NCBI RefSeq assembly: GCF_000231405.2
Contig: NZ_CP007032.1
Location: forward strand, 930,001-994,000
Source: Desulfitobacterium metallireducens DSM 15288
GTDB lineage: Bacteria; Bacillota; Desulfitobacteriia; Desulfitobacteriales; Desulfitobacteriaceae
Reading direction: 5' to 3'
Length of the DNA stretch: 64,000 nt
Positions within the stretch are counted from its first letter, which is position 1; every line of letters begins with the position of its first letter. Of the stretch, positions 34,402 to 42,280 are shown piece by piece. A program made the position numbers and the translations under genes. The notes under the pieces are model-generated. The model saw only the letters and a list, made by a program, of their open reading frames with translations. It did no database searches and had not been told where the DNA came from.

Positions 34402-34866
34402 TTAATATTCACCTTTAATTACGAAAAACGAACCTCGAATTGTTCCAGCTAGTTTAGACCTCTGCCTAGCAAACTTAAACTTCTCTTCTAACTCTTTTGG
34501 TACATCCATTCCTTCAGAAAGCTTAAAACCAACGGCCCGCTTCTTAGGGTCATCAACTGTATACATGATGTTGACCACAAGACCATCCTCATAAAAGACG
34601 TAGGCAAATTTGATATTTTCCACTTGAAAACGCGACGTTTCTAAAGGTTTGGCCACAAACTCAATATCACGTTCTTCTTTCAAGATTCGGTTCACATAAT
34701 CAAGGGTCTCCTGGTTTTCGCTAGCTGGGACAACCGTAAATTCATGCTTGTATTTGTTCATAAAGTAACGGGCTTCATTAGCACGTAAACCAGCAAGCGC
34801 TTCAACTACAGGGGAAGACTCTAAACCAATTGTAGACACATTTTTAAAATCAACGATATATAACAT
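34402..34866 (-). CDS. Conserved hypothetical protein
   Basis: A 154-residue soluble protein, not recognised. It starts M-L-Y-I-V-D-F-K-N-V and mixes beta-type segments with charged helices; no transmembrane part or cysteine pair is present. A start at 34872 is possible, but AAGGAG (34875-34880) fits ATG 34866 better (8 bases). It is convergent with the RIC gene. Nothing in the context assigns a function. Confidence 0.65.
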   Translation of the reverse strand: MLYIVDFKNVSTIGLESSPVVEALAGLRANEARYFMNKYKHEFTVVPASENQETLDYVNRILKEERDIEFVAKPLETSRFQVENIKFAYVFYEDGLVVNIMYTVDDPKKRAVGFKLSEGMDVPKELEEKFKFARQRSKLAGTIRGSFFVIKGEY

Positions 34867-34972
34867 TTTCATCTCTCCTTTTGCCGTTTCGCTGTCTCAT
34901 CTCATCAGCAAGTTGTCACTATACACCATATATTATACAATACAAGAACTTTTAAAAAAAAGATAACGTTAA

Positions 34973-38896: not shown

Positions 38897-38976
38897 AAGG
38901 TCCAGATATGAGAGTGCCACCTATTATAAAGGGGTATAGTCGATTTAAGTACAGGAAATAAATAATGTTAAGATGA

Positions 38977-39000
38977 AAGCCGTCCGAAGGGGCGGCTTTT
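38977..39000 (+). terminator. Terminator of the MerR operon
   Basis: A 9-bp stem with one wobble (AAGCCGTCC, 38977-38985, with 38990-38998), loop GAAG, then TTTT. Confidence 0.85.
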
Positions 39001-39138
39001 GTATTAAGGCGTGAAGATCGAATAAGAGAATTGAATGATTGTTTAAAACGAAACTTACGTATATCATATTAATTGAAGAATCGACAACAGGTATAAACGG
39101 GCTGTGGCTTTAAAAATAGATAAAGGATTTTAAAAGTT

Positions 39139-41781
39139 ATGAAAAGATTAGTAATTGGGATATTAGCCCATGTGGATGCGGGCAAGACAACATTATCAGA
39201 GAGTATGCTTTTTCTGAGCGGTAAAATTGGGAAATTGGGCAGAGTGGATAATAAGGATGCCTATTTAGACAATTATGAGCTAGAAAGGGCAAGAGGAATC
39301 ACCATTTTCTCAAAACAGGCCATTTTTGAAATGGGTGAGATACAAATTACATTACTTGATACCCCAGGGCATGTAGATTTTTCGGCTGAAATGGAGAGAA
39401 CACTTCAGGTGCTGGATTATGCCATTTTAGTGATTAGTGGTGCGGATGGGGTGCAAGGACATACCAAAACCTTATGGCGGCTACTTGATATGTATCAGAT
39501 CCCTGTTTTTTTATTCGTTAATAAGATGGATCAGAATGGGACGGATAAGGAAAAGTTAATCAAAGAAATAAATTATCAGCTGATTGACAGATGCATTGAA
39601 TTTGAACAGGTTAGGACAGACGGCTTTTATGATCAATTGGCAATGTGTGATGAAATAATGATGGAAGGCTATCTCGAAACAGGAAAAATAGAAGCTGTGC
39701 AGATTAAAAAAGCGGTTATGGAACGTAAAGTTTTTCCATGTTTTTTCGGTTCCGCTTTGAAATTAGAGGGCGTTGAGCATTTTATGCAGGGCATTGCTAA
39801 GTATGCCTTGATACCTTCTTATCCCGACGAATTTGGGGCTAAAATATTTAAAATTTCAAGAGATGAGCAGGGAAACCGATTAACGCATATGAAGCTTACA
39901 GGCGGAAGATTAAAGGTAAAGGATGTCTTAAAAAATAGCAGTTGGGAAGAGAAGGTTAATCAAATTCGTATCTATTCTGGACAGAAATTCGAGGCGGTGA
40001 GCGAGATTGAGGCAGGTTCTGTATGCGCTGTAACTGGGCTCAGCCAAACTAGACCGGGAGAGGCCTTAGGGATAGAGGAAGTTTCAGAAGCACCTGTATT
40101 GGAACCGGTGCTGTCCTATCGTATTATACTTCCGGAAGGCTGTGACCCAAGAGTGATGATTCCCAAGCTGCATCAGATTGAAGAAGAGGAGCCGGAACTT
40201 CATATTGTCTGGGATGAGCAGTTACAGGAAATTCAGGCACAGATCATGGGTGAGGTGCAGATTGAAATTCTGCAGAGCCTTATCCAAAAACGATTTGGGG
40301 TCATAGTAGCTTTCGATGCGGGAAGGATTGTATATAAAGAGACGATTGTCAATGGAGTAGAAGGGGTTGGGCACTTTGAACCCTTGCGGCATTATGCGGA
40401 GGTTCATCTGTTATTAGAACCGGGTGAGCCAGGAAGCGGTCTACAGTTTGGGGTGGAATGCAGTGAGGATATCTTAAGTAAAAACTGGCAAAGACTTATT
40501 CTAACCCACCTTGAAGAAAAAGTTCATAAAGGAGTTCTAACAGGTTCTGCGATTACAGATATGAAAATTACCTTAGTCTCAGGTAGAGCGCACAATAAAC
40601 ATACAGATGGCGGTGATTTTAGAGAGGCTACTTACCGTGCAGTGCGCCAGGGTTTAAAGGAGGCAGAATCCATCGTGTTGGAGCCTTATTATACCTTTCA
40701 GATGGAACTGCCTGAAAAAATGGTAGGCAGAGCAATGACTGACATTGAGAAAATGCATGGCACATGTGAAATATCACAGACGAATGGCGAGATAGCGGTT
40801 CTTATGGGGAACGCTCCTGTTGTTACCATGAGGAATTATCAGAAAGAGGTAGTTGCTTATACCAAAGGACGTGGAAGGCTATTTTACAGCCTGAAAGGCT
40901 ACGAACCTTGCCACAATTCCAAAGAGGTCATCGAAAGTATCGGATATGATTCGGAAAGAGATCTGGAAAATCCTACAGGTTCTGTGTTTTGCACACATGG
41001 TGCAGGCTTTTTAGTGGCTTGGGGTGAAGTGAAGGACTACATGCATGTTGAAAGCTATCTGCAGATAAAAGACGACTTATCGGGAGAGACCGTTCAAAAT
41101 CTGGCCCCATATACAGAAAAAAGATCAATCAGTTTAGATGAGATTGACCAAATTATCAATAATACCTTCTATGCGAACCAAGGAAAGAAGTCTGTCTGGA
41201 AAAGAAGTAAAACAGCCCGTGAAAGTTATTATGAACCGACTACCTATGTCGGCAGTGAGAAGGAATTCAAAGAAGAGTATCTTCTTGTGGACGGCTATAA
41301 TATTATCCATGCTTGGCCTGAACTGAAAGCGCTCGTAGATGAAAATATGGACGGTGCCAGAATGAAATTGCTGGATTCCCTAAGTAATTATCAGGGGATT
41401 AGAAAATGTCAGATTATCGTTGTGTTTGATGCTTACCGTGTTCAAGGGCATTTTGAGGAAGTCATCGATTATCTTAATATCCATATTGTTTTTACCAGGG
41501 AAGCTCAAACAGCAGACCAGTATATTGAAAGATTTGCCCTTGGAAATCAGAAAAGATATAATATCACGGTTGCAACGTCAGACGGTTTAGAGCAGCTTAT
41601 TATCAGGGGAGCAGGATGTTCCTTATTATCTGCTAGAGAGCTGAAGATTGAGATCGAAGGGGCTAATGAAAGATTAAGGCAGGAATATCATGAAATACAG
41701 GGGAGAGATCGTAGTTATCTAATAGATGCATTGTCCCCTGAAGCAAAACAGCAGATGAAAGGACTTGTTAAAAAATCTTAA
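39139..41781 (+). CDS. TetM/EF-G-like translational GTPase fused to a Rae1/YacP-type NYN (PIN) nuclease domain
   Basis: An 880-residue protein. Residues 1-710 follow the TetM/EF-G plan: G1 A-H-V-D-A-G-K-T-T-L (10-19), R-G-I-T-I, G3 D-T-P-G-H-V-D-F, G4 N-K-M-D, a G5-like S-A-L, then domains II-V. The domain IV tip reads G-R-A-H-N-K-H-T-D-G-G-D-F, not the Y-S-P-V-S-T-P loop with which TetM displaces tetracycline, so drug resistance is doubtful. Residues about 713-880 are a complete NYN/YacP domain: L-L-V-D-G-Y-N-I-I, V-V-F-D-A-Y, T-A-D-Q-Y-I-E and A-T-S-D-G-L-E-Q supply acidic metal residues. The Bacillus homologue Rae1 cuts mRNA in the ribosomal A site. The fusion predicts a GTP-driven, A-site-directed RNase. 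AAAGG lies before ATG 39139. Confidence 0.9.
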   Translation: MKRLVIGILAHVDAGKTTLSESMLFLSGKIGKLGRVDNKDAYLDNYELERARGITIFSKQAIFEMGEIQITLLDTPGHVDFSAEMERTLQVLDYAILVISGADGVQGHTKTLWRLLDMYQIPVFLFVNKMDQNGTDKEKLIKEINYQLIDRCIEFEQVRTDGFYDQLAMCDEIMMEGYLETGKIEAVQIKKAVMERKVFPCFFGSALKLEGVEHFMQGIAKYALIPSYPDEFGAKIFKISRDEQGNRLTHMKLTGGRLKVKDVLKNSSWEEKVNQIRIYSGQKFEAVSEIEAGSVCAVTGLSQTRPGEALGIEEVSEAPVLEPVLSYRIILPEGCDPRVMIPKLHQIEEEEPELHIVWDEQLQEIQAQIMGEVQIEILQSLIQKRFGVIVAFDAGRIVYKETIVNGVEGVGHFEPLRHYAEVHLLLEPGEPGSGLQFGVECSEDILSKNWQRLILTHLEEKVHKGVLTGSAITDMKITLVSGRAHNKHTDGGDFREATYRAVRQGLKEAESIVLEPYYTFQMELPEKMVGRAMTDIEKMHGTCEISQTNGEIAVLMGNAPVVTMRNYQKEVVAYTKGRGRLFYSLKGYEPCHNSKEVIESIGYDSERDLENPTGSVFCTHGAGFLVAWGEVKDYMHVESYLQIKDDLSGETVQNLAPYTEKRSISLDEIDQIINNTFYANQGKKSVWKRSKTARESYYEPTTYVGSEKEFKEEYLLVDGYNIIHAWPELKALVDENMDGARMKLLDSLSNYQGIRKCQIIVVFDAYRVQGHFEEVIDYLNIHIVFTREAQTADQYIERFALGNQKRYNITVATSDGLEQLIIRGAGCSLLSARELKIEIEGANERLRQEYHEIQGRDRSYLIDALSPEAKQQMKGLVKKS

Positions 41782-41878: not shown

Positions 41879-42280
41879 ATGGCTAAAAAAGTATCACCCT
41901 CTATTGACGAATGGCTTAAACAAGCAAAAGCGGATCCAATGGCTTTACAGGAAGGGATGTTTTTAGTACATAATGGTGTAGTGCGTCAAACACCCAAAGC
42001 TAAAGTCCGCCAAGGATTTGATGATGGTTCGTTAGTAAAAGGAATGGAATTTGCTTATGATGCAGTGAAGGTGGATGCGGCGATTGCGGAAACTTATAAA
42101 ATGGATGGTATTTTCTATGTTAAAGTCTGGCTTAATGAAGGCCAACTTGATGTTGGTGATGATATTATGTATGTTCTAATTGGCGGAGATATTAGACCCC
42201 ATGTTGTAGATGCCTTGCAGTTCCTAGTTGAAAGAATTAAAACCAAATGTGTTGTAGAGATTGAACAAAAGTTAAGTTAA
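41879..42280 (+). CDS. moaE: MoaE-like molybdopterin synthase large subunit homologue
   Basis: A 133-residue protein. The segment K-V-R-Q-G-F-D-D-G-S and the C-terminal V-W-L-N-E-G-Q-L-D-V-G-D-D-I-M-Y-V-L-I-G-G-D-I-R agree with the MoaE-like family annotated in Desulfitobacterium-type genomes. MoaE adds sulfur to precursor Z to form molybdopterin. The catalytic lysine pattern of standard MoaE is not obvious, so this may be a distant paralogue. Upstream extension from 41765 overlaps the fusion gene and is rejected; AGGAG (41866-41870) fits ATG 41879. Confidence 0.6.
   Translation: MAKKVSPSIDEWLKQAKADPMALQEGMFLVHNGVVRQTPKAKVRQGFDDGSLVKGMEFAYDAVKVDAAIAETYKMDGIFYVKVWLNEGQLDVGDDIMYVLIGGDIRPHVVDALQFLVERIKTKCVVEIEQKLS

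Follow-up and report, generated by a model that had tools for sequence, protein, structure and literature searches.

EF-G and TetM reach the A-site region of the ribosome via domain IV. A different kind of protein, the nuclease Rae1 (YacP), is described as translation-dependent and as itself entering the A site (PMC10100781, PMC6613710, PMC12320835). Rae1 of Bacillus subtilis is a free-standing protein encoded in the rlmB-sigH operon; it carries Arg118 and a C-terminal KWRR motif, and has no GTPase. The substitution R166P, in this tail, is a loss-of-function rae1 allele in B. subtilis (PMC6613710). A protein in which the two activities could meet was mentioned by Atkinson et al. in 2015, in a single sentence: in ten Clostridiales species, Tet proteins had gained a YacP-like NYN domain, for which a resistance mechanism was suggested (PMC4342817).

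Here, we analysed a 64,000-nucleotide stretch, the window, of the complete 3.18-Mb genome of Desulfitobacterium metallireducens DSM 15288. It encodes a Tet-like GTPase and a YacP-like NYN domain in one clostridial protein, as in the Tet-NYN fusions of Atkinson et al.; the architecture and the bacterial group are the same, and the protein of the window is a member. The initial annotation implied that this fusion was novel, which was overstated (PMC4342817): the architecture was reported in 2015 and is therefore known, and the window adds a new member. What is added here to the 2015 description is the wide spread of the fusion, its single origin, its replacement of yacP, a domain-IV tip that is not that of Tet proteins, and an altered nuclease tail. 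In the literature covered, outside of which lie key Rae1 papers, including the 2018 RNA Biol paper on distribution, we found no earlier report that yacP was replaced, that the fusion arose once, that its tip is distinct or that KWRR was lost.

The gene and its surroundings are composed of the following features.

38976..38999 (+): hairpin AAAGCCGTCC-GAAG-GGGCGGCTTT, seen by eye and absent from the scan output; probably the terminator of the gene upstream
39122..39127 (+): AAAGGA, likely ribosome-binding site, seen by eye, with the ATG 11 bases further on
39139..41781 (+): fusion gene, 880 amino acids and stop; frame read with translation and Pfam
39148..39804 (+): G domain, residues 4-222, with AHVDAGKTT, RGIT, DTPGH and NKMD all present; Pfam GTP_EFTU, 3.1e-51
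39835..40062 (+): domain II, residues 233-308; Pfam EF-G_D2
40102..40311 (+): domain III, residues 322-391; Pfam EFG_III
40321..40665 (+): domain IV, residues 395-509; Pfam EFG_IV
40582..40620 (+): domain-IV tip GRAHNKHTDGGDF, residues 482-494; sequence alignment
40675..40923 (+): domain V, residues 513-595; Pfam EFG_C
40924..41067 (+): structured C-tail specific to the GTPase family, residues 596-643; alignment, pLDDT about 80
41068..41265 (+): disordered linker of 66 residues (644-709) with the conserved short segment EIDQIINNTFYANQGKKSVWKR inside; pLDDT under 50
41275..41778 (+): NYN_YacP/Rae1-type nuclease domain, residues 713-880; Pfam NYN_YacP, 1.6e-52 at 715-876

The frame is uninterrupted, and Pfam finds in it both the GTPase domains and NYN_YacP, in keeping with the two complete halves in a single frame that the initial annotation described. 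All the Pfam matches, from GTP_EFTU to EFG_C and NYN_YacP, exceed the curated cut-offs; the NYN_YacP match scores 178 bits against a cut-off of 24.6 and covers model positions 1-164 of 166. The first half has the G1-G5 motifs and domains II-V of a translational GTPase of the EF-G/EF2 superfamily, and its GTP motifs show no or almost no variation across the family alignment. The sequence that had been given for the tip was exact. The statement that the GTPase is joined to the NYN domain stands in that both belong to the same protein, but the junction is not direct, since the C-tail and the linker lie between them. The C-tail follows the pattern CHN..EVI...NPTGSVFC.HGAGF.V.W..V..YMH, which also occurs in the unfused relatives in the alignment.

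An AlphaFold2 model, made from a 35-row alignment, has a mean pLDDT of 82.9. The GTPase is confident and includes the tail, up to about residue 643; segment 644-709 is disordered, and the NYN domain is again confident. The listed structure matches span residues 1-634, which is the GTPase side of the fusion. Here, the predicted fold resembles that of EF-G (Z about 41, residues 1-607) and that of ribosome-bound TetM (Z 32.9, residues 1-633). In sequence comparison with the PDB, the first 590 residues match TetO and TetM best, and the last 170 match B. subtilis YacP/Rae1 best (5mq8, 5mq9; 5e-24).

The GTPase half shares with TetM and TetO the five-domain fold, about 30% sequence identity and the GTP motifs. 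However, the tip of TetM, YSPVSTPADF, contains Pro509, whereas the fusion has HNKHTDGGDF, and TetM has no nuclease. Pro509 is the drug-displacing residue of TetM (PMC8161019). The residue that aligns with it is Lys487, and lysine is found at this position in 23 of 27 fused proteins and in 5 of 7 unfused relatives; nearly all family members have the tip G[RK]AHxKHTEGGDF. His485 aligns with the tip histidine of EF-G, which, together with the fold, is the likeness to that factor. The fusion differs from EF-G in having neither the SGGRGQYGH loop nor the DSSE(M)AF tip, in its G domain, which is smaller and has no G' insert, and in the additional C-tail and nuclease. Its score of 297 bits with the EF-G equivalog model TIGR00484 lies below the cut-off of 659, and the genome has an EF-G gene besides the fusion.

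The upstream hairpin suggests that the fusion gene forms a transcription unit by itself. We recognised no Tet-type attenuator or leader upstream of the gene, where only the probable terminator of the preceding gene was seen. No conserved neighbours that hint at function were found, the largest recurrent cluster comprising 9 of about 105 loci. A MoaE-like protein is encoded directly 3' of the fusion, at 41879-42280 (+), and is not kept as a neighbour elsewhere. Farther upstream in the window, at 34402-34872 (-), there is a 156-residue open reading frame that has no Pfam match.

Could the fusion be a protein for resistance to tetracycline or another drug, with the RNase as an extra mechanism, as Atkinson et al. 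suggested? TetO and TetM are its best full-length sequence matches in the PDB, and a Tet subfamily with an NYN domain is named in PMC4342817. Against this, the score with the NCBI model tet_protect, for ribosomal protection proteins (RPP), is 423 bits, under the cut-off of 775, and the drug-site proline is replaced by Lys487. Moreover, two genomes (G105, G163) carry genuine TetM-type proteins, at 30% identity, alongside the fusion. The near-invariant tip, the wide chromosomal presence, the position as sole YacP of the genome and the lack of recurrent neighbours resemble those of a housekeeping gene. We therefore consider a role in resistance very improbable. The initial annotation warned that a tetracycline-resistance label would be misleading; the different tip and the tet_protect score agree with that warning.

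The catalytic core of the nuclease half is well conserved. The active-site acids of B. subtilis Rae1 in 5mq8 and 5mq9, Asp7, Asp53, Asp81, Glu85 and Asp104, correspond to Asp718, Asp764, Asp793, Glu797 and Asp815 of the fusion, and these five are identical in the alignment in all 27 fused and all 29 standalone proteins, so that the acidic NYN residues are intact. Other features of Rae1 have been lost. Arg118 is present in 29 of 29 standalone proteins and is retained by seven early-branching fused ones, while the protein of the window has Leu829 in its place and most derived fused members have leucine. The KWRR tail, by a strict pattern, is found in 20 of 29 standalone proteins versus 2 of 27 fused ones, and these two are, by eye, lysine-rich ends and not KWRR. 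In this stretch, the crystal structure 5mq9 differs from 5mq8 by W164 to L. The C-terminus of the window's protein ends in SPEAKQQMKGLVKKS, with no KWRR, and this protein thus has neither Arg118 nor the C-terminal KWRR of standalone Rae1. After the loss of these features, docking of the fused nuclease may have come to differ from that of Rae1.

The fusion is widespread across Clostridia. It occurs in at least 30 of 398 genomes, in 12 families, in a sample drawn evenly from the phylum. In the window's own family, NYN_YacP was found in 31 of 46 genomes; 28 of these have the whole frame, of about 880-906 residues, and 3 have frames that lie at contig ends or are shorter. A scan of named genomes gave at least 598 stretches, of which the best 80 loci were examined, and 76 of these 80 have the NYN domain in the same frame. 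Among these best loci, the fusion is found in Lachnospiraceae (Hungatella, Mediterraneibacter, Anaerostipes, Eisenbergiella), Anaerovorax, Fusibacter and Caproicibacter; the nearest named relative among the matches listed is Desulfosporosinus acididurans. Two nearly complete genomes of the window's family, both of genus g2 (G001, G002), have the YacP domain neither free nor fused.

A frameshift or an assembly artefact was ruled out, since the same frame is found in dozens of genomes: open frames of about 880-930 residues recur across the 12 families, and 70 of the 74 named loci that are not cut off contain one. The frames likewise rule out two separate proteins, and the unfused GTPases form a different branch of the tree.

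In a tree of the GTPase parts, all fused proteins fall into a single clade (support 100/99), nested among unfused relatives. These relatives have 640-660 residues and share the tip and the C-tail with the fusion, in which the nuclease is attached directly behind the natural C-terminus of the unfused GTPase. In the NYN tree, the fused domains likewise all lie on one side (92/85). As the GTPase tree shows, the fusion arose once, and the unfused relative from which it came still exists in other genomes. Unfused GTPases of roughly 650 residues (L083-L088, L092) provide a natural two-protein comparison for the fusion. Of the seven genomes with an unfused GTPase, four also encode a free YacP and three lack YacP altogether, and thus the GTPase serves some purpose even where the nuclease is absent. 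A separate, nuclease-free EF-G/TetM-like branch was also seen (L090, L091, L093 and L094, in G380, G235, G401 and G394, respectively); its conserved tip, which differs from that of the fusion, is GxxHxxHTHPxDF in the first three and HSRPGDF in L094, and these proteins look uncharacterised.

Where the fusion is present, the free-standing gene is gone. In each of the 30 fusion genomes of the 398-genome sample, the fused NYN_YacP domain is the only one, and YacP is present in 199 of the 368 genomes without the fusion. The probability of this one-YacP pattern by chance is 3e-10 in a naive hypergeometric calculation that ignores relatedness, and about 1e-4 with the 12 families counted as independent. 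The ancestral slot has the order cysS-mrnC-rlmB-[yacP]-sigH, and yacP of B. subtilis likewise sits between rlmB and sigH (PMC6613710, PMC8266666). The order rlmB-yacP-sigH was found in all five checked genomes with a free YacP. In nine of ten checked fusion genomes, rlmB is followed by sigH with no yacP, the two being 5-263 bases apart; the tenth is rearranged. The identities of the slot genes were checked in the genome of the window and in G092. The association of the fusion with genomes that lack a separate yacP, raised in the initial annotation, is thus borne out. Two families, f47 and f62, have both states, in different genomes. The f47 fusion (in G240) has 70% identity to that of the window and clusters with it in the tree, which suggests that in f47 the intact fusion was transferred and the native gene then lost. 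One genome (G187) has two yacP copies with equal scores on two contigs (L126, L136), either a true duplication or an assembly duplicate.

Because the fusion replaces yacP and the old gene is lost, the distribution suggests that the fusion has taken over the job of free Rae1. This bears on a reading in which the GTPase works as a translation factor in its own right, for instance in paused-ribosome release or back-up translocation, and the NYN domain cleaves RNA by itself, such as precursors of rRNA or tRNA, so that fusion couples only the amounts of the two. The long disordered linker, the existence of the unfused GTPase alone and at times without any YacP, and the loss of the Rae1 docking-type residues would fit such independence, as would an early prediction of a role in rRNA and tRNA maturation for NYN, cited in PMC4342817. 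The replacement of yacP points the other way, and so does the reported translation dependence of Rae1 (PMC10100781); we regard independent action as unlikely.

We consider it somewhat probable that the fusion serves Clostridia as a housekeeping translation factor in place of free Rae1, and that its GTPase delivers a tethered Rae1-type nuclease to paused ribosomes, where the nuclease cuts mRNA. The observed parts of this best explanation are the architecture, the intact GTP and nuclease motifs, the single origin, the exclusive replacement of yacP and the tip that is not that of TetM. By homology, the GTPase, of EF-G/TetM type with its own tip GxxHxKHTEGGDF and not an RPP, would bind paused ribosomes in its GTP state at the usual factor site, bringing along the catalytically intact NYN domain on the flexible 66-residue linker. 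Domain IV would sample an empty or stalled A site. An EF-G-like domain IV and a Rae1 domain would compete for space in the A site; as both could not be there together, a two-step order is expected. GTP hydrolysis would release domain IV from the A site, and the tethered nuclease would then enter the vacated site and cut the mRNA of that ribosome. On the simplest account, the docking surface of Rae1 itself would have decayed after fusion because it was no longer needed once the GTPase delivered the nuclease.

A related account has the GTPase act first, clearing or remodelling the A site, for instance by displacing a stalled factor, and then leave, after which an ordinary, freely acting Rae1 domain would cut and the tether would serve local concentration only. 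The unchanged catalytic core is compatible with it, and the linker, with a contour well over 100 Å by arithmetic, could reach from the factor site as far as the decoding site. If docking were unchanged, the loss of Arg118 and KWRR would be unexpected, and we hold this account to be quite unlikely, although sequence work can hardly tell it from delivery by the GTPase. Delivery by the GTPase may be taken one step further, to a reading that we hold to be plausible but somewhat less likely than not: the fusion would be a GTP-gated ribosome nuclease, in which the GTPase took over from Rae1 the choice of ribosomes, cleavage at paused ribosomes is licensed by the GTPase, and the lost docking residues are the trace of this change.

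The fusion links two questions, namely how Rae1 chooses and enters ribosomes, and what purpose the many TetM-like GTPases that do not confer resistance serve. Automated annotation of these fusion proteins as TetM-like resistance proteins would be wrong. Free Rae1 has been displaced in a dozen or more families, which predicts that ribosome-dependent mRNA cleavage would proceed via a GTPase in a large part of Clostridia, common gut genera among them.
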